Origin: Halorubrum salipaludis
GTDB lineage: Archaea; Halobacteriota; Halobacteria; Halobacteriales; Haloferacaceae
DNA length: 46,348 bases
NCBI RefSeq assembly: GCF_002286985.1
Contig: NZ_NSKC01000013.1
Span: forward strand, 1-46,348
Direction of reading: 5' to 3'
The notes under the pieces: generated by a model
What the model saw: the letters and a program-made list of their open reading frames with translations, nothing else
Database searches by the model: none
Told to the model about the DNA's origin: nothing
Position numbers and translations under genes: made by a program
Shown: piece after piece, positions 2,323 through 40,673 of the stretch
Layout of the letters: every line of letters starts with the position of its first letter
How positions within the stretch are numbered: the first letter of the stretch is position 1

Positions 2323-5300
2323 CTACAGCGTCTCGTCTAAGAATCCACGGTCCATCTCGCACCGTTCGGCCGCGAAATGATTCGCTATACTACGAGCATA
2401 TTGTAATGCCTCTTCGTTGGTTGCGATCGCATTTTCATAGATTTGTTCTCGGTGGGATACCTGGCTTGTTCGCACCGTGGAGGACCAGTCGCCCTGAACT
2501 GCCGCTTCAACCAGAACTCCGTACAATTCTACAGCGATCATCGGATACCTGTCTGACTGGTTCGCGATCCACTGTTCAATCTGACGCCAGTGCAGATTCC
2601 ATGTGGCAATATAAAAAAGAGATCGGCGTACACGGTCTTGTTCCTGCGCTATATCGGTTACGGAGGATTCACGAACACAGTCCAGAAATTGGCGTACCTC
2701 GTTTGCATTATCCTGGTGTACGGCCTCCTTTTCGTCTGCTAACTGGTCTAACCGCCAGTCCCACAGTGTCCTAATAGAGTCCCACTGCTTCTCCACCTCT
2801 GGCTTTCCAATCCCGTTCGCAAGCCTTCTAGCAACCTCTGCCGCTTCCTCGGAAGATGCAAAACGGTAATATTGTGAGATAAGGCTCTCGTCATCGGAAA
2901 TTGATTCTGTCCCGAATAAGTAGGATGACATGACGTGGACGGCAGTGGATCGGGTATTGATTTGATACGCATCGTCTTTATTGCAGTCCAGCAGGCCTAT
3001 CGCATGGATATAGTAGGGTCGGAAGGTGTCGTATCCCCACATGACGTTATGGCTGGTAAATGAGTTCCACGCGGCGACGAATCGGCGCTGTTCTGTGGTC
3101 GTATCTCCACGAGGAAAGATCGTATCTAGGTGTCGTTCTACCATGTCCTGGTCAAGATTCCAGAGAGTCCCGAATCGCCGCCCGATTACTGTGCGGACGG
3201 CAAGCGACTGATCCTCTGTGATGCGCTCCTCAATCGCGTCACAGAGTACTCGATCTGGCTCGGTATCTCCCTCTTCTGATACCCACCACATGTAGGTGAT
3301 GAGCGCGTTGACCGCCATTGGACGTACTGAGTTGATTGCGACTTGGACCGGGTCACCGTAGCCGGCCATTCCCTCCGCAGGCTGGTCTCGTTCTTGATCT
3401 GGATCCGGGTCACTGACTAACACCAACAAGATATCACGGACACTATTCGCGTGGCCATCAGGAAACGGTGTTTCCTCAATAGCCATGCCCTTATTGAGCA
3501 GCATAGCAAGGCAAGTACGACTGCCGGCACTCCACGCATCTGGGTCGTCGGCAATGGCTTCTCCAAGTGCGATGATCGAACTCCAAGAAAAGGTCTGTCC
3601 CTCGTCGAGCAGGTCCCGGAATGCCCGAAATGCCGCCTCGGTGTACCGAGGATTGGCATCCTCTAGAATTGAGATTTCGCGGGCATATCGTTTTGGCTGT
3701 TCTTCGATCAAATCCCGAACCTGCCGCGAAAACCCGATATCGCTCCACTCCTCAACTTTTCCGTCTTCATCGGGGTCCTGTCGTTCTGTTTCCGGAGATT
3801 CCCATTCGACGGCGGTGGTGAGTACTTCTTCGGCTGGTTGGTCTCGTAACTCCTCTGTCTGCTTCGCCCCCCGTTGATTCACGGCTCCCCATCTGCCAGT
3901 TATATCGGATTGGGATGATTCAGACGGAAGCCGATCTGGTTCACCATGCTTCTCCAGCAGTTCATCAAGCTGCGTTGTATAGGAATCAGGCAACGAATCC
4001 TGAATGAGGTAGAGCCGGTCTCGACGCCATGTTTCCCGTAGTCGTTGTTCAAGGTATCCTACAGATTCTTCTCGCCATTCAGCGAGCTGTTCAGCTCTGT
4101 TCGCCATATCTGTATACGGGCCATTAGTGATAATGCCGCAGACCTGTGTCTCGACATCTCCCTCCAGATACTCAAATGCGGTTGCCAACAGTCGGTAAAA
4201 TTCGAATGTGGCGGGGCGACTCCGGTAGTTCTGGTTATCCAGTAACTCGGTCTCAATGATATCGATGTAGTATTCGAGGTGCGCTGCGAGCAGTGTGAAG
4301 CCGACACGCTGGAACATTACAGGACCGTCAAGCAACTCCTTGACGAACTCGCGCCTGTCAGAAGCAACTGGATCCTCACGAACCCATGCTGTGACGGCAC
4401 GAATAAAGTACTGTAGAAGGATGTGTTTCAGCTTTCCGCGGTTCTCGTCGATGTAGTCCAGTTCTGTAACTGGTATCTGCTTGACTATTACGTCATACTT
4501 GATACTGTTCTCCGATTCGATGCGGAGTTCGTCTTTGAGATTCGTGTAAAACACCTCGATGAGGCCCTCGGGCCGTTCCTCACGGAGGTCGGTAAATGTC
4601 TCTTCAAGCGCTTGGATAAGACGATATCTCGTCATACCCTGATTCCCCTCTAATTGGTCGTTACCGTTGACCTGTCGTGGAGTGAGAATCACATCCAAGA
4701 TCTCGAGGGCGGTATCATACTCGTTGTGGCTACAAAGGTGCTCAAGTAGATCCAGTCCATGGTAGGCGAGGCCGTGGTACATATCGGTCTCCCGGATCCA
4801 TGGTATTGCTCTCTCGCCAACTGTTCTCGCGCCGGTTGCTGGGAGATCGGTGCCGAGTGAGATGAGGTATCGTTTTGACCGTTCATCGTCTGGCTGGGCT
4901 GCGTCAATCGCCCGTTGTACGAAGGATGGCCGGGTATCCGTTATCCGTGCGAGATAGGTGAGCAAAATGTTTGACGGATTTTCGAATGCGCCCTGTTTGA
5001 GGTGTCGTTCTCCCCAAGAGCGGTGGAGTTGTGTATCATAGAAGTCGTTTGTAATATCGGTTCTAGAGTCGATGGCTGCGAAGATCGCTTCGACGATTGG
5101 TTCCGGGAGTTGTTCCGTGTCGCGGATTTTGAATTCGGTGACGAGTAGCGAGGTCGGATAGAAACTAAACCCATCGTCCTCCACAACGTGTGTAATAAGG
5201 TCGGATACAGCTTCGGTCTGCTCCCGGATGACGGCGTCAGAAAGGAACTCCAGGCAGGAGGAGATGTACTGGGCCTCCGTTTCGAGATCCATGTCTTCGT

Positions 5301-6378
5301 CAGTCAGCTTGATCGTGGTTTCTGCGTAGTATTGGAACGCTCGTTGTTCGGTTTCCTCGGTCCGGTCCCACCGACCCGCAAGGAACTCTCGGAAGACATC
5401 ATGGACCTTGAATGTGGAGAGGCCTGTATGGGTTCGTCCAATCGGTTGAACAACAGTGCGGGTGCTGAGGGATTCAAGAATTTCTGCAACAGCAACCCGG
5501 TCTAGCCCGTAGGAATCGGGCAGGACGTATGTACAGACAGCCTCATTGAGTTCAGGCAGCGGGGCGGTTGCTCGGAGGACACGGCGCTCGTCGGGAGAAA
5601 GAAACTTGAGATATCGTTCTTCGATAGCCGTATAGACTTCGTCATCTGGGAGTTCGAGGGTTGTAGCATCCTCGTTCGATTCGATGAGTAAACCGAGATA
5701 GAGTGGATGGCCGTCAACGTCCCTGTGAATGTGTTGTATCTGGCTGTCATCGATCTCGGGAAATGCCTGATTGAGAAGTGTCGCTGTTTGTTCCTTCGTG
5801 AAGGTGTTGAGTGAAACGGCGGTTTCCAGATCACGGAACGCAAGCCGGCCCGTGGTGGTGAGCGTGACGTTTGATGGGAGGCTGTTAGCTACTTCTTTGA
5901 TCACACCCCTGATCGCTCTGTCGTTGTCATCCAGTTCGTGGACATCGTCGATACAAATCAGGAGTGGTTGTTCTTCGGGGAACAGTTTGGACAACTCAAC
6001 GAGGGCATCCCTGTAGCCGAAATGGGCTTTAGTTGCCTCTGCTGTATCATCGTCCCAAGACAGACCCCCTATTGGGCCAATACTGATGCCGGAGAGTCTC
6101 TTTCCTTCCTCTTTTTGCTCGTCTGGAAGGTGGTTGAACAAGGTATGACAGATCTCACGGACAAAATCCTCGTGGCTGTGGTTTGGTCGTATTTTTCGGA
6201 TGTCTATCTCATAGCCCTCACAGAGGTCTGTTGTAAGTTGTTGGAGTGTGGTTGTCTTTCCGATCCCTGGCTCTCCAGCGATATGGATGTGTTCTGATCC
6301 ATCTTCGATATATCTCGCTATCACCTCCAACTCAGGTCGGCGTATTGAGTGGGTAGTAGGAGTGCTATTCTCGGCCAT
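2323..6378 (-). CDS. STAND-type P-loop ATPase with long C-terminal helical region
   Basis: This 1351-aa protein begins almost directly with its NTPase domain: Walker A GEPGIGKT at residues 35-42, Walker B LLICIDD at 139-145, a sensor strand VTLTTTGR near 171-178 and the STAND-type GHPLYLGLL motif at about 223-231. A winged-helix region follows (about 265-345). The remaining 1000 residues are helical with no recognised domain, like the ligand-sensing repeat arm of MalT/Avs-type STAND proteins. STAND ATPases oligomerise on ligand binding and act as regulators or antiviral sensors. No effector nuclease or TIR domain precedes the ATPase, unlike typical Avs proteins, so any effector must lie in the C-terminal arm or elsewhere. 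A TTAAAAATTT box at 6402-6411 lies about 28 nt before the start. It is transcribed alone. ATPase call strong, antiviral role inferred. Confidence 0.8.
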   Translation of the reverse strand: MAENSTPTTHSIRRPELEVIARYIEDGSEHIHIAGEPGIGKTTTLQQLTTDLCEGYEIDIRKIRPNHSHEDFVREICHTLFNHLPDEQKEEGKRLSGISIGPIGGLSWDDDTAEATKAHFGYRDALVELSKLFPEEQPLLICIDDVHELDDNDRAIRGVIKEVANSLPSNVTLTTTGRLAFRDLETAVSLNTFTKEQTATLLNQAFPEIDDSQIQHIHRDVDGHPLYLGLLIESNEDATTLELPDDEVYTAIEERYLKFLSPDERRVLRATAPLPELNEAVCTYVLPDSYGLDRVAVAEILESLSTRTVVQPIGRTHTGLSTFKVHDVFREFLAGRWDRTEETEQRAFQYYAETTIKLTDEDMDLETEAQYISSCLEFLSDAVIREQTEAVSDLITHVVEDDGFSFYPTSLLVTEFKIRDTEQLPEPIVEAIFAAIDSRTDITNDFYDTQLHRSWGERHLKQGAFENPSNILLTYLARITDTRPSFVQRAIDAAQPDDERSKRYLISLGTDLPATGARTVGERAIPWIRETDMYHGLAYHGLDLLEHLCSHNEYDTALEILDVILTPRQVNGNDQLEGNQGMTRYRLIQALEETFTDLREERPEGLIEVFYTNLKDELRIESENSIKYDVIVKQIPVTELDYIDENRGKLKHILLQYFIRAVTAWVREDPVASDRREFVKELLDGPVMFQRVGFTLLAAHLEYYIDIIETELLDNQNYRSRPATFEFYRLLATAFEYLEGDVETQVCGIITNGPYTDMANRAEQLAEWREESVGYLEQRLRETWRRDRLYLIQDSLPDSYTTQLDELLEKHGEPDRLPSESSQSDITGRWGAVNQRGAKQTEELRDQPAEEVLTTAVEWESPETERQDPDEDGKVEEWSDIGFSRQVRDLIEEQPKRYAREISILEDANPRYTEAAFRAFRDLLDEGQTFSWSSIIALGEAIADDPDAWSAGSRTCLAMLLNKGMAIEETPFPDGHANSVRDILLVLVSDPDPDQERDQPAEGMAGYGDPVQVAINSVRPMAVNALITYMWWVSEEGDTEPDRVLCDAIEERITEDQSLAVRTVIGRRFGTLWNLDQDMVERHLDTIFPRGDTTTEQRRFVAAWNSFTSHNVMWGYDTFRPYYIHAIGLLDCNKDDAYQINTRSTAVHVMSSYLFGTESISDDESLISQYYRFASSEEAAEVARRLANGIGKPEVEKQWDSIRTLWDWRLDQLADEKEAVHQDNANEVRQFLDCVRESSVTDIAQEQDRVRRSLFYIATWNLHWRQIEQWIANQSDRYPMIAVELYGVLVEAAVQGDWSSTVRTSQVSHREQIYENAIATNEEALQYARSIANHFAAERCEMDRGFLDETL

Positions 6379-7844: not shown

Positions 7845-8279
7845 TTACTCTTTGAGTTCGAGCCTGTCTGCGAGCTCATCTTCGTGGTCAATCGCAAACT
7901 CCACGAGAGCCTCCATAAAGTCAGCATGCTTTTCGATGCCGCCATCACCGGCTACTTTGGACTGCCCATCCAGCCGATCGTAGAGGCTGTTGAGTTGGTC
8001 TGCCTTCGCTTCTGGAAGGTACATCGGAACTTGCCGGCGATTTCGTGTTGAATCTGGGTTTGGATCTGGACCCGGCTTACCTGTGCCATCTGTATTACCC
8101 GAATCACTCGTATTATACGAGTTATCTGTAGTACCTGTACTATCCGGGTTATCCGTCGTATCTGACTGACTCATACTGTCACTCCCCTCGTCTTCGCTGC
8201 TCTTCTCTGATTCCTCATCGCCTGAATCGGCTCGACGGTCCTCGAATCGTTGGCCGAGTTCCTCCTTTGGATCAGTCAT
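7845..8279 (-). CDS. ParA-linked partner protein (probable partition adaptor)
   Basis: This 144-aa protein follows parA with an 8-nt ATGACTGA overlap, so it is translationally coupled. Residues 1-85 are an acidic, Ser/Thr/Asp-rich disordered tail with repeats (TTDNPDSTGTTDN, SGNTDGTGKPG). The C-terminal 55 residues (RRQVPMYLPEAKADQLNSLY ... HADFMEALVEFAIDHED) have the strand-helix-helix look of a ribbon-helix-helix domain. Plasmid ParA operons usually encode a small centromere-binding protein next, and this fits that role. Possible binding sites are the 17-bp repeats at 8109-8152, 8362-8378 and 9100-9134. Function is inferred from position. Confidence 0.6.
   Translation of the reverse strand: MTDPKEELGQRFEDRRADSGDEESEKSSEDEGSDSMSQSDTTDNPDSTGTTDNSYNTSDSGNTDGTGKPGPDPNPDSTRNRRQVPMYLPEAKADQLNSLYDRLDGQSKVAGDGGIEKHADFMEALVEFAIDHEDELADRLELKE
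8109..8152. repeat. Two copies of a 17-bp repeat inside the ParA-partner gene
   Basis: CGTATTATACGAGTTAT (8109-8125) and TGTACTATCCGGGTTAT (8136-8152) resemble CGCATCATCCGGGTTAT within parA (8362-8378) and two copies upstream of parA. The first sits in a 15-bp near-perfect palindrome, CTCGTATTATACGAG (8107-8121). These may be centromere-like sites, or may only reflect the repetitive Asp/Asn/Ser/Thr coding sequence. Confidence 0.45.
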
Positions 8280-9078
8280 TGTTGAGAGATTCAACCTGTG
8301 CCGCGATGGCGTTGTACTTGGTTCGTAGCTGGTCTGTCTTGTCTGCGTCCCACGGGTAACCCGCATCATCCGGGTTATACGCGAAGACCGACGTCCGGTA
8401 TTCGATTGCGTGCTCGACAGCTGCCCAATCCGGGATCTCGAATACGTACTCCTCGCCAAACGTCTCAACGAACCATGTCCGCATCTCGTTGCTGACACCG
8501 TCCTGCCCCACCTCATTCAGCACAGCGGCTACTGTCGAAATCTGTACGTCGTCGAACTTGTCCTCGAGAGTGTCGATCTCGTCAAAGAGGATCTCTAGTG
8601 AATCCTTCGCGATCGTGTTTGCATTGCTGGGGAAGAGTACGTTTTCAGCAGCTAGCAGAGCCCCATCAGCGAGTGGTCCAAGGTTTGGTGGAGAGTCAAT
8701 CACCACGTAATCGTACTCCGCTGTAAGCCGGTCGAGGGCGATCTTCAATGCTTCTACCCCACGTGCTTCTGAATACAGATGCTTCTCCAGTCGGAAATTC
8801 CGTATATGGGATGGCACTATATCGAACTCGTCACCGGAGACGATCAGCTCGTCAAGATCGTCAAGTGAGAGGCGACCCATTTCGGACAGCACGTCATAGA
8901 GTGCATACTCTCCCTCGCGGTACTGTTCTCGGTATCCGAGTTTGAGCGTGAGTCCACCTTGTGGGTCCGCGTCGACAGCCAGTACATCATGGCCTCTGTC
9001 AGCGAGCGCGCCAGCTAGGTTGATACTCGTCGTTGTCTTGCCGACGCCGCCCTTCTGCATCCCGACGTCGATTCGCAT
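8272..9078 (-). CDS. parA: ParA-family partition ATPase
   Basis: This 268-aa protein has the deviant Walker A KGGVGKTT at residues 9-16, DADPQG (switch I region) near 38-43 and YDYVVIDSPPNLG (Walker B/switch II) near 122-134. The C-terminal helical part is normal for short ParA/Soj proteins without an N-terminal DNA-binding domain. It segregates plasmids together with the coupled downstream protein by forming dynamic ATP-dependent patterns on the nucleoid. The start at 9078 gives the usual few residues before the P-loop. Its upstream region carries two 17-bp direct repeats (9100-9134), likely operator or centromere sites. Confidence 0.92.
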   Translation of the reverse strand: MRIDVGMQKGGVGKTTTSINLAGALADRGHDVLAVDADPQGGLTLKLGYREQYREGEYALYDVLSEMGRLSLDDLDELIVSGDEFDIVPSHIRNFRLEKHLYSEARGVEALKIALDRLTAEYDYVVIDSPPNLGPLADGALLAAENVLFPSNANTIAKDSLEILFDEIDTLEDKFDDVQISTVAAVLNEVGQDGVSNEMRTWFVETFGEEYVFEIPDWAAVEHAIEYRTSVFAYNPDDAGYPWDADKTDQLRTKYNAIAAQVESLNND

Positions 9079-18016: not shown

Positions 18017-18164
18017 AGTGTCCTCTCCGGCAAGCGCATTGTGGGAATCGTCTCGAGGGCTCGACCCCACCAGCGGCGAGGTAGACAGCGTCGAGTTCCG
18101 CGAGAGCATCGCCGATCATCGAGACGAGATCGGCGCCGGCCACCGACAGGAAACACTCTCCGCA

Positions 18165-19124
18165 GGCTCTGTTGAAATCCTATTCTTCACACATATTATC
18201 GTCTGAAACAGCTAGTCGCTAAAGCGTACCCACTGACTCAGATCCTGTGGGATTCATGTTATCACACCTATTGGATGCGGAAAATTGTTGGTAATCAGCT
18301 ATCCGAATCAACAACACCGGACTCTGGATGTTGCTCAAGTTTAGAAGATGCATTCGAGGATGTGTTCGTTTCCATTAATCGGAGTAAGAGATTCACCGTA
18401 TGGATCACGTCCCGGGCATAATCCTCGTCGACCTCTTCGATAAATCGATGGCTTGCAGGGTTGCGCAATGACTGCATCGCTCCTCGATAGAGAAACATTA
18501 CTCCTTGTTGTTCACTACCGGTTTCGCCAAAGGAGAGGGGTCCGTCATCCGGCGTGAACGATTCAGTCATCAAGTCAGAACCGTGAATATCTCGCCCGAA
18601 GCCACCTCTGTCTCTCACCCGTTCTTCAAGAATAATGAATGCGGACTGAACTGCGCTTTGGTAGTGACCACTCTCATATTGGGAGACACTTCTCTCGACC
18701 AGTTCGTCATCAAGTACAGAGGAATCGACTTCTGTGAATTCACCAGCCTCATCTGCCCATGGATACGGCTCTCCGCATCCATGACAGAAATCTTTTACAT
18801 CTGGGCCAGAACCGCTGAAACCACCCTTATATCGCCCTTTGATATTTGTTTCGCACTTGGGGCACTGATGAATTGTGTCAGATCCACATTCTTCACAAGC
18901 AGATTGACGGAACTGAGGCTCGCTGTATAAGTCGGTTATTTTGTGTCCTTCCAAACATACCTGCATTATATCATATCCGTGTTGGCTCATTGATTAACAA
19001 GTTACAACGCGGTTAGGTTATCAGTTTTGCTGTCAAGTACTCGAATCAGCCACCGAGTCTACGTTATCCTGTACTGACCAACGCAAGCCAGAATGTGTCT
19101 TCTGTTGAGAATTTCAACAGAGCC
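18165..19124. mobile_element. Non-autonomous IS5-like cargo transposon (960 bp)
   Basis: The left end GGCTCTGTTGAAATCCTATT at 18165 and the right end AGAATTTCAACAGAGCC at 19108-19124 are inverted repeats. They are flanked by exact 8-bp duplications TCTCCGCA (18157-18164 and 19125-19132). The ends match the IS5-type element at 39599-40548 over about 50 bp on the left, and the total length is similar to that IS. Instead of a transposase it carries one gene (18295-18990). It must have moved with a transposase supplied in trans. Confidence 0.9.
18295..18990 (-). CDS. DUF2321 zinc-ribbon plus TIGR02391 (Ymh-like) protein, transposon cargo
   Basis: This 231-aa protein starts with the DUF2321 pattern DIMQVCLEGHKITD and a series of Cys pairs (ACEECGSDTIHQCPKCETNI, FCHGCGEPYPWAD). 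It ends with a helical TIGR02391/Ymh-type domain (YESGHYQSAVQSAFIILEER ... MFLYRGAMQSLRNPASHRF). The C-terminal domain's LxRGAMQxLRNPxxH signature is shared with proteins found beside restriction and abortive-infection genes. It is the only gene in the transposon, has the minus orientation and takes the place normally occupied by the transposase. Role possibly in nucleic-acid-dependent defence; this is inference. Confidence 0.8.
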   Translation of the reverse strand: MSQHGYDIMQVCLEGHKITDLYSEPQFRQSACEECGSDTIHQCPKCETNIKGRYKGGFSGSGPDVKDFCHGCGEPYPWADEAGEFTEVDSSVLDDELVERSVSQYESGHYQSAVQSAFIILEERVRDRGGFGRDIHGSDLMTESFTPDDGPLSFGETGSEQQGVMFLYRGAMQSLRNPASHRFIEEVDEDYARDVIHTVNLLLRLMETNTSSNASSKLEQHPESGVVDSDS

Positions 19125-19390
19125 TCTCCGCATGGGACGGACCGCTCGCAGCGTTCGTCGCCGCTCTGGAAGAGGAGGAACACACTGACCATCGCGAGGC
19201 GGGAACTGGCGGACGTGCCGACGGCCCCCTGTATTTTCAGACGGCAATCCCAACGATAGCTACCGTCCCCGCTGCCTTCTGGCGATATAACCCGCAAAAA
19301 GTCAGGTGGTAGTACAATGTGTCTGTGTGTTGGCACTATACCCATCGCTACGGAGAGGGGGTAGTGGGTGAAAAAGGACTACGTCGCTGG

Positions 19391-22483: not shown

Positions 22484-22595
22484 ATGCCGTATTCTCTGTC
22501 GGCTGGTTACTTACTCTTTGGTAGGTCCGCACCGACCGATGAGCGCTTCACCTGTACTGAGGTTCCTGAGTATCTTATACTGGCTGCGACTGGGT

Positions 22596-22631
22596 CAGAA
22601 TACATCACCTGCTGAGAATTTCGACAGAGCC
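22596..22631. mobile_element. Solo right end of the IS5-like cargo element family
   Basis: CAGAATACATCACCTGCTGA and the following AATTTCGACAGAGCC match the right end of the element at 19091-19124 (CAGAATGTGTCTTCTGTTGA then AATTTCAACAGAGCC) in nearly every position. No matching left end or 8-bp duplication of the flanking AGATCTTA was found, so it is a decayed or rearranged copy. Confidence 0.7.
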
Positions 22632-38550: not shown

Positions 38551-38938
38551 TCGTATCCGACCACAATTACGTCAGGGAAAGTCCAACAGACCTGATCGAC
38601 AAACGCTAGCTGGCGACTAAGTCTGCGCCGCTGGATCAGTTCTGGCCGTCGGCGAGGCGGGCGGCTTTGCGAACTTCTGCGAGACAGCGACGAAGACGAA
38701 CTCGCTCGTCGACCGGATGAAGAGATCGAGTTGCCCGATGTCAACGACGTGGTCGACGACCTAGGGAACTACCTTCGGACGGTCGAGCGCGCTGAGGAGC
38801 TCGATGAGAAGATCGAGAAAATCGACGACCTGATCGGCGAGATCGTCTACGAGTTGTACGGGCTCACTGACGAGGAGATCGAAATAAAGGAAGAAGCGGC
38901 TCTGTTGAAATCCTTCGACGCTGATATATCCCAAGCCG

Positions 38939-39070
38939 CGTGCTGAATATAGAGGCTGTAGTCAGCACGGGAACTACGTTATTTTCTCCACATAGATCCT
39001 GAACCAACCGAGAGAATGTGCCTGCTTATTGAACTCGGTCATAGAGTATCTGCTCGTTTTGGGATTTTAT
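38939..39070 (-). pseudogene. Gene fragment matching 21270-21463
   Basis: The minus strand encodes SRLVQDLCGENNVVPVLTTA S with no start. It is the second copy of the core seen at 21290-21360; GTAGTCAGC...GGGAACT...CGTTATTTTCTCC is common to both. It lies just inside the left terminal repeat. Confidence 0.5.
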
Positions 39071-39113
39071 TTCACCCCAAAGCACTTGTTCTCAGTCAAG
39101 TCATTCTGAACCA

Positions 39114-39575
39114 ATGAAAAGTGATCCGTCAATATATATGGACTCGCGGTTAGAATCGCTCCTTCTGGGGAAGTCGTCGAACCTATCGCTCCGGTATCTC
39201 GGGTACTCCGTCATTCTCATGGCCTTGTTCTTCGGTCAACTCTATCTTGTTGGAAATTCTGAGATGGGGAACTCATCTGGTTTGCTTATGAGTCCACTTG
39301 GAGTTACAGTGTCAGCGATTATTCTGGCAGGGATACACACATATCGCAACGATGGAATACTGCTGAGTATCGCCATCGCTGTGATCATCATGAGCGGCTC
39401 TACTCTGTATGGTGTCATCTCGCTTAATCACCCCCAACCTGACTATGGACTGTTAACCGGTGTGGGGACAGCAATACTGTATGGTGTACCAATAGGGGTT
39501 ACAACATCTACTATTGCGTATGTGTTACGTCGGTATGTCCCGGGCCGATCTTCAGTAGCATCTACGGAAAAATAG
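39114..39575 (+). CDS. Four-helix membrane protein, transposon passenger
   Basis: This 153-aa protein has four predicted membrane helices: YSVILMALFFGQLYLVGN, LGVTVSAIILAGIHTY, ILLSIAIAVIIMSGSTLYGV and VGTAILYGVPIGVTTSTIAY. The N-terminus (MKSDPSIYMDSRLESLLLGK) is polar and the C-terminus ends in basic residues. No catalytic or transport motif is visible. It resembles small uncharacterised haloarchaeal membrane proteins. It lies between two left-end copies of the element and has travelled with it. Confidence 0.65.
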   Translation: MKSDPSIYMDSRLESLLLGKSSNLSLRYLGYSVILMALFFGQLYLVGNSEMGNSSGLLMSPLGVTVSAIILAGIHTYRNDGILLSIAIAVIIMSGSTLYGVISLNHPQPDYGLLTGVGTAILYGVPIGVTTSTIAYVLRRYVPGRSSVASTEK

Positions 39576-39598
39576 GGCACTGCAGATTTGTCGAAATC

Positions 39599-40548
39599 GG
39601 CTCTGTTGAAGCCCTATTATTCAGACATATTTTCGCCAGAAACAGCCCGTCGGTGAGAACTGTGTATTGACCGCTCAGAGTGATCGGTCTACATTATGAA
39701 TGAGGCAGGCGATCGTGAGTTCACGGAACTGTTTCCACCAGCGTCGTGAGCGAACAAACGCACCGTACTTCCGCTTGAGGGTTGAGTTGACAGTCTCGGA
39801 TTGACTCCGCTGGCCGTAGAAATCAGCGTCTAAGCCCGCGTTCCATGCCTTGTGGAGTGGCGTGAACTCACGATGCTTGATCAATGGACGAACCTCATGT
39901 TGACGGGCAAGTCGTCTGATTTTCTGGTCGTCGTACCCTTTGTCACCGAGTAGAATGTCAATATTCTCGGGGTTGCGCTTGATCAACGACGGAGCAATCT
40001 GACTATCGTGTTTTCAAGTCGTCGTCACGTGTAAATCAAGAATCGCATTTATTTTCTCATCGACCAGCAACGTCACCTTGAGCTGCTGAATCGTGAGTTC
40101 GGTGCGTTTCGTGTAGTGTTTCGAAGCGTGACTGCGGTCAAACCCTGACGCATCAACACCAACGACACCGCTCGTCGGAAGTAGCGTCGCTGAGAGAGTC
40201 AACATCGCACGCCATACAGCCATATCAAGTCGATTGAACGCTTTACAGAGCGTTGATGGCGTGGGAAGTTCGGCTAATCCAAGAACTCGACGAATGCGGG
40301 GCATCTCGATTAATTCATCAAGTAGACCACGATAGGTCGTGTTTTTCCGAACTTTGAGACACAGCAAAACAACGTGTTGCGGAAGTGTATAGCGGTGTTT
40401 AGAGAATTTCGAGGAATACTGGGAGACAGCTCGCCGTGCCAGATGGATCGCCTTCTCAGTAAACCGGAGAATCTGCGACTTCGGGAGGGCCTTCATCTCA
40501 TCGAATTACACGGCGAACATGTAACTCTCTGAGGATTTCAACAGAGCC
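39599..40548. mobile_element. IS5-family insertion sequence (950 bp) nested in the cargo element
   Basis: The inner left end GGCTCTGTTGAAGCCCTATT at 39599 resembles the left end of the Ymh-carrying element for about 50 bp. It shares the right end at 40548 with the larger element. Flanks of this smaller unit are not duplicated (TCGAAATC against GAAGAAGC), so the larger unit is the one that last transposed. Confidence 0.8.
39675..40496 (-). pseudogene. IS5-family transposase with internal stop
   Basis: The frame reads from ATG at 40496 through LPQHVVLLCLKVRKNTTYRG, TPSTLCKAFNRLD and VVGVDASGFDRSHASKHYTK to an in-frame TGA at 40014-40016. It continues unbroken in the same frame: LLGDKGYDDQKIRRLARQHE, RSQSETVNSTLKRKYGAF and a stop at 39675. 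The three acidic residues of the DDE triad are GVDASG, LLGDKG and SETVNS. The one nonsense codon, 160 codons in, probably inactivates this copy; readthrough cannot be excluded. Total 273 codons, normal for haloarchaeal IS5 (ISH1-like) transposases. Confidence 0.88.
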
Positions 40549-40673
40549 GAAGAAGCAGCTATCGAGTAGCATCTGTGGTCCTGATTATTGCGCTAATCCC
40601 CGCCACTCGATATCATATCAGACCCGCAACGGCCATTTTTCGGTTCGTTCACACGACGTCGGTTATCAATACA

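Follow-up and report, generated by a model that had tools for sequence, protein, structure and literature searches.

A probable mobile insertion cassette carrying a Ymh HEPN gene in Halorubrum salipaludis, among many gene-bearing units with ISHla2-like ends

In Halorubrum salipaludis, a 960-bp unit without a transposase has IS-type ends on both sides, lies between copies of an 8-bp duplication at a site that is empty in relatives, and carries a gene under purifying selection. We consider it very probable that this unit is a mobile insertion cassette (MIC) of an ISHla2-like IS5 element, an explanation of which mobilization in trans and an RNase cargo are the parts that we infer. Throughout Halorubrum, these end modules enclose many different genes; the same passengers recur in other species at other sites, and different tails are found in IS copies whose transposases are near-identical.

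Results

The 960-bp unit is a true insertion

The window analysed here is the whole 46,348-bp stretch of contig NZ_NSKC01000013.1. The unit occupies positions 18165–19124 and has 17-bp inverted ends with an exact 8-bp duplication, TCTCCGCA, on both sides (Table 1), exactly as the first-pass annotation had claimed. Its only long ORF is a DUF2321–Ymh gene, and a transposase is absent. The window holds seven TIR-like sites against 0.15 expected by chance, and the right end of the unit fits the R1 consensus described below only moderately, with three mismatches in the box.

We joined the two flanks with a single copy of the 8-bp target and aligned them to relatives. Two Halorubrum genomes (G363, 80%; G248, 76%; each over about 174 bp) and one further genome of the same family (G423, 79% over 66 bp) matched the joined sequence with no break at the junction. 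Because the joined flanks are unbroken in relatives, both the insertion and its target duplication are true ones. The empty sites that the first-pass annotation had proposed to look for thus exist, and its description of a transposase-free IS5-type element with a DUF2321/TIGR02391 gene stands. The uninterrupted gene of G363 has a ParA-like gene (named from its sequence) upstream of it. The window copy of the interrupted gene diverges further rightward, indicating that the locus has been rearranged as well. In the H. salipaludis genome (G000), a different cassette (C3:78629–79315) adjoins a stretch (C3:79329–79662) that is paralogous, at 87%, to the DNA on the right of the window's unit, so related plasmid loci of one genome have received different cassettes near the same place. 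The window also encodes, at 2323–6378, a protein of 1351 aa whose start, GEPGIGKTT, is P-loop-like and, at 8272–9078, a ParA-like partition protein, which fits a plasmid contig.

One earlier argument did not survive. The length of the unit, close to that of a 950-bp 'cognate IS' (39599–40548), had been taken to mean that the cargo replaced the transposase. That IS has no bracketing duplication of its own; instead, GAAGAAGC brackets a larger, 1651-bp unit (38898–40548) within which it lies. Since cassettes range from 332 to 2779 bp, we rejected equal length as evidence of replacement.

Table 1. Coordinates of the insertion, its parts and other units in the window and in the H. salipaludis genome (window positions unless a contig is named)
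Feature	Position	Strand	Remark
ORF split by the 960-bp unit	18018..19312 (18018-18164 joined to 19133-19312)	+	uninterrupted homologue in relatives, downstream of ParA-like gene
Left copy of 8-bp target duplication, TCTCCGCA	18157..18164	.
Left terminal inverted repeat, 17 bp, GGCTCTGTTGAAATCCT	18165..18181	+
L-end module, common to ISHla2-like IS ends and other cassettes	18165..18229	+	end-model match E 7.7e-18; alignment
Cargo gene, 231 aa: DUF2321 zinc ribbon (aa 6-82) and Ymh HEPN domain (aa 93-205)	18295..18990	-
RNPASH, aa 176-181, R-x4-H HEPN RNase motif	18448..18465	-	conserved in homologues (alignments)
R1-type end module	19065..19124	-	alignment; end typing
Boundary box TTGGTCAGTACAG inside R1 end	19069..19081	-
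Right terminal inverted repeat, 17 bp, AGAATTTCAACAGAGCC	19108..19124	-
Right copy of 8-bp target duplication, TCTCCGCA	19125..19132	.
Solitary R1-type end	22573..22631	-
Second window unit, 1651 bp	38898..40548	.	duplication GAAGAAGC at 38890-38897 and 40549-40556
Passenger of second unit, 153-aa membrane protein	39114..39575	+	two further Halorubrum genomes have this cassette, at other sites
ISHla2-like IS5 transposase, one in-frame stop	39675..40496	-	only near-full copy found in own genome
Duplication-flanked cassette, SBF transporter	C3:4128-5375
Duplication-flanked cassette, 148-aa lipoprotein-like protein	C3:78629-79315
Duplication-flanked cassette, 205-aa protein	C26:158966-160095

The cargo joins a zinc ribbon to a Ymh HEPN domain

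Domain matches bear out the initial reading of the sole gene as a zinc ribbon plus Ymh-like protein: DUF2321 (E 1.9e-21), Hypoth_Ymh (PF09509, E 1.5e-24, 86.6 bits against a curated cut-off of 25) and TIGR02391 (E 4.9e-13). The HEPN motif is intact (RNPASH), and RNPxSH is present in every aligned homologue. The closest homologue is that of Halovenus rubra (81–82% amino acid identity), with those of Halorhabdus salina and Halorientalis pallida at 66%; a dN/dS of 0.073 between the cargo and the Halovenus gene indicates purifying selection. At the DNA level, homology between these two genes begins about 60 bp ahead of the start and ends at the stop codon. None of the three homologues sits inside a duplication-flanked pair of these ends. 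Cargo without the repeats at the same position, which the first-pass annotation had named as the observation that would speak against a transposon, was not found; repeat-less homologues occur at other positions only.

An alignment-based scan of genome contigs recovered three haloarchaeal homologues and one bacterial one, a single-protein scan of genome contigs found nothing, and viral contigs and phage records gave no match. In Halorhabdus salina (L048, 7–738), the DUF2321–Ymh homologue has a 243-aa neighbour with RNRYAH, a possible Rx4H motif, suggesting that two HEPN-like genes may lie close together.

Structure prediction of the cargo was of low confidence overall (mean pLDDT 40 from the single sequence and 56 from five sequences). 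Structural comparison placed HEPN or HEPN-like chains on top (best Z 11.0 over 106 residues, rmsd 3.1), and the next two dozen chains were mostly HEPN toxins, Csm6 or AbiV, although the model is modest and its domain helical. Foldseek against the PDB gave no significant match, the best being a HEPN protein at E 0.21, and PADLOC gave weak matches to PD-Lambda-3_B (E 2e-4) and Aga_HEPN (E 1e-3). Among HEPN families, Ymh is one that conserves an Rx4-6H motif, and it has been described in fusions with pMORC, AbiJ-NTD1 and AbiTii (PMC3710099). The cargo resembles these proteins in its PF09509/TIGR02391 match, Rx4H motif and helical HEPN-like model; it differs in its fusion to an N-terminal DUF2321 zinc ribbon, which is outside that list, and in being carried in a cassette with IS ends. 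The motif and the modelled fold point to a putative RNase effector for which a role in defence is plausible. Such a zinc-ribbon/HEPN protein would act as a metal-independent RNase, in the manner of a single-gene abortive-infection or toxin-type effector.

Asymmetric end modules and their partner IS

Alignment resolved two asymmetric end types, L (about 68 bp) and R1 (about 60 bp); the left end of the window's IS is of the L type, and R1 lies opposite it. Models of these ends match 51 of 52 and 52 of 52 Halorubrum genomes, typically with 10–40 copies of each end. Across the Halobacteria, L ends are present in 214 of 292 genomes, which represent 62 of 77 sampled genera. In the H. salipaludis genome as a whole, end modules beyond the stretches taken were counted by model search alone. 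In plasmid records, the end sites mostly have no annotation beneath them. We dropped a reading of the modules as RNA-type hairpins, having found no compensatory pairs in the L end and no structure in the R end.

The partner is a 273-aa transposase with a DDE_Tnp_1 match (PF01609, E 2.3e-18), as an IS5 assignment calls for; a relative on plasmid pHLAC01 of Hrr. lacusprofundi is named 'IS5-like element ISHla2 family transposase' in RefSeq. The 960-bp unit has its TIR and L end in common with ISHla2-like IS copies and likewise a duplication of 8 bp (as in L137, L151, L160, L231 and others). Relatives of the transposase occur in 47 of 52 Halorubrum genomes, many of them intact at 273 aa. The sole near-full copy in the draft H. 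salipaludis genome is interrupted by an in-frame stop, so that, barring a further copy hidden in an assembly gap, the 960-bp unit may at present be unable to move in this genome.

A survey finds many cassettes with different cargo

The first-pass annotation had suggested searching haloarchaeal genomes both for the whole unit and for its terminal repeats around other cargo. Among the 381 genomes searched, no other one yielded the exact unit; the repeats do enclose many different genes across Halorubrum. Our sample comprised 118 loci: 18 stretches of H. salipaludis DNA and 100 loci from relatives, picked for the best end-model scores, so that its proportions are not unbiased. Among 285 TIR pairs in relatives, 37 have an exact 8-bp duplication (shuffled mean 0.48, maximum 4 in 2000 shuffles) and 47 an exact or one-mismatch duplication (shuffled mean 0.82, maximum 5 in 2000 shuffles). 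Together with the own genome, this gives 52 duplication-flanked end pairs in the 118 loci where chance would give about 1; the 52 include a few nested or duplicated rows, and two cases, L154 and L211, are weaker (untypable end; duplication resembling the TIR). A non-transposase ORF of at least 50 aa is present in 45 of these units, a near-full transposase in four, a fragment in one and neither in two; 38 of the 52 have one L and one R1 end.

The H. salipaludis genome has 39 TIR-like sites, against 0 with a reversed-pattern control. Five of its 178 pairs are flanked by an exact 8-bp duplication (shuffled mean 0.25–0.32, maximum 3), and four of these five are free of a transposase: the window's DUF2321–Ymh unit and the cassettes on C3 and C26 in Table 1. 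Further units there have decayed duplications or TIRs. One 119-bp stretch (G000, C11:815–933) amounts to hardly more than the two ends, L and R, resembling an empty shell, and its 8-bp flanks do not match. The fifth pair is the window's 1651-bp unit, arranged as R-type end, passenger gene, internal L end, transposase and IS right end. Its outer ends are both of the R type, so the L plus R rule is not absolute, and its internal IS end is decayed (two mismatches). This composite is possibly an intermediate of passenger capture.

One passenger can occur in more than one species, each time at another site: L210 and L217 are 92% identical in nucleotide sequence and have duplications AGTGATTT and CGCAGATC, and L147, L191 and the window unit at 38898 represent one cassette at different sites (83–91% identity). 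Defence genes are a visible minority of the cargo. One unit (L118, G224:C21:33945-36327) holds a complete Pycsar pair, cyclase and 2TM effector, at 299–2229 inside ISHla2-like ends (PycC, E 5e-17; PycTM, E 2e-28), with an exact 8-bp duplication, GCTTTGTT, and a transposase remnant of 31 codons; others carry an Mrr endonuclease (L116), a trypsin-like protease (L114) or a RiboL-PSP-HEPN gene (L211). The remaining cargo includes SBF transporters, RidA, an M48 peptidase, DUF998, DUF5518, DUF3592 and a PBP-like lipoprotein. Small uncharacterized membrane proteins or lipoproteins are frequent, and many passengers have no Pfam match. This list rules out a cargo of defence genes only. In Halorubrum lacusprofundi, a model species of the laboratory, a cassette flanked by the duplication GTTTCGTG and without an annotated gene lies immediately next to a restriction endonuclease gene (L139; NC_012030.1, around 354460–354921).

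A probable passenger slot from the transposase stop codon to the L end

In nine duplication-flanked IS copies the transposases are 84–100% identical to the query, yet the tail that separates the transposase stop from the L end is different in every copy and has almost no DNA similarity to the others. In most IS copies the stop codon is followed by GCGGTCAATACAG or a close variant, and this box is at position 44–45 of most R1 ends. The outer part of R1 also resembles the IS right end, with 12 of 17 bases alike after the TIR (consensus to consensus). Taken together, box position and outer likeness make an IS right end that lacks the transposase ORF the best reading of R1. A 105-aa passenger was found twice, in an intact IS (L231, genome G133) and, within H. 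salipaludis, in a unit that lacks the transposase (C4:50516–51040); the two are 94.6% homologous from cassette base 45, just after the transposase stop, through the L end. In a minority of units (11 of 43 at ≤4 mismatches, compared with about 6% in the null), a box similar to the one in R1 ends also lies about 76 bp inside the L end.

Discussion

The 960-bp unit combines the ends of a known IS group, a passenger unrelated to transposition, the lack of a transposase and a duplication of the partner's length, all of them features of an MIC. It differs from a transporter IS, which has transposase and passenger together, as L137, L151 and L231 do, and from the short, non-coding MITEs in its 960 bp and its 231-aa gene under purifying selection. 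We envision a cassette moved in trans, by transposase that comes from an intact ISHla2-like copy and binds both the L and the R end. The stretch from the box right after the transposase stop codon to the L end would serve as a variable passenger slot, and loss of the transposase ORF would leave an R1-type end, turning an IS with a passenger into a cassette. Going by sequence comparison, the better-supported derivation has passengers in this tail and the transposase ORF lost.

We weighed several other explanations. Genes might instead be exchanged at a fixed place, from the post-transposase box to the L end, through recombination of the repeats that they have in common on either side, in a manner reminiscent of an integron without an integrase, with loss of the transposase being secondary. 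The fixed box position in most R1 ends, the nine tails behind near-identical transposases and the one passenger seen in both IS and transposase-less contexts, with homology confined to passenger plus L end, all favour such exchange, and in some units the related box inside the L end would yield directly repeated boxes around the passenger. However, that L-side box is weak, the boxes are short and without an identified recombinase, and repeated one-off captures followed by vertical spread would look alike; we regard exchange as a possibility that we tend to doubt. The broader proposal, that ISHla2-like elements and their transposase-less derivatives form a haloarchaeal gene-exchange platform in which one set of ends and a fixed slot allow genes, Pycsar modules among them, to be swapped and spread in a cassette-like, integrase-free manner, is similarly tentative.

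The interrupted transposase and the decayed duplications or TIRs of several own-genome units would suit a population of relics, once mobile, whose partner transposase is mostly dead and whose fossils were fixed by neutral drift. Exact duplications with perfect TIRs are nevertheless common, as are intact transposases in the genus, and a cargo dN/dS of 0.07 does not suggest drift, which makes this account improbable. Selection for a defence gene could also have driven the assembly of this particular element, and the HEPN cargo here and the Pycsar, Mrr, protease-type and RiboL-PSP-HEPN cargo of other units are in keeping with that; yet most cargo consists of small membrane proteins, lipoproteins, transporters, RidA and others, and we rate a stand-alone defence transposon as quite improbable. 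For chance repeats or an assembly artefact, only the draft state of the genome speaks. Against it stand the 0.15 TIR sites expected in the window, the exact duplication, the empty site in relatives and the same architecture in many independent genomes, so that we give it practically no credence. The reading as an MIC of an ISHla2-like element remains the one we favour.

A close known counterpart is MIC231, the mobile insertion cassette of IS231 in the Bacillus cereus group, which likewise has IS ends, no transposase, a passenger gene and presumed mobilization in trans. The Halorubrum units differ in their archaeal IS5/ISHla2-like partner, their 8-bp duplications and the dozens of end modules per genome, as well as in their many passengers, conserved asymmetric ends and fixed passenger boundary. 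The MIC concept is established (PMC3129680, PMC2266710), as are ISs with additional passenger genes, the transporter ISs (PMC3129680). Intact ISHla2-like copies resemble the latter in having both transposase and passenger; the differences are that the 960-bp unit lacks a transposase and that all nine of the nine duplication-flanked IS copies examined differ in their tails. ISH2-type MITEs of Haloquadratum are mostly non-coding and under about 520 bp, with one ORF-bearing family; mobilization in trans is assumed for them, and they occur also without a functional cognate transposase (PMC3119063). Like our cassettes, they are transposase-free and have TIRs and duplications, whereas the Halorubrum units reach from 332 to 2779 bp and hold diverse genes. 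Pack-TYPE transposons of plants, a non-autonomous kind of DNA transposon, capture coding DNA and shuffle it (PMC8903248). They share with the cassettes the non-autonomous carriage of coding DNA and differ in domain of life and transposase family, and haloarchaeal units take whole genes. Literature searches for the TIR sequence, ISHla2 and such cassettes in haloarchaea found no description, with the 2007 archaeal-IS review outside the search and an earlier notice there possible. The cassettes are ordinary in kind, MICs and transporter ISs being known concepts, while their archaeal form is apparently unreported and unusually abundant. What is unusual is the scale, the archaeal IS5 setting, the passenger slot beside the transposase stop codon and the carriage of defence modules.

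Because Hrr. lacusprofundi has intact transposases as well as cassettes, mobilization and passenger exchange are testable there. The end models allow a direct census of the cassettes in Halobacteria genomes and of the genes that travel in them. With end sites mostly unannotated and many passengers outside any Pfam family, a general route by which single genes move among haloarchaea, defence genes included, may have been overlooked.
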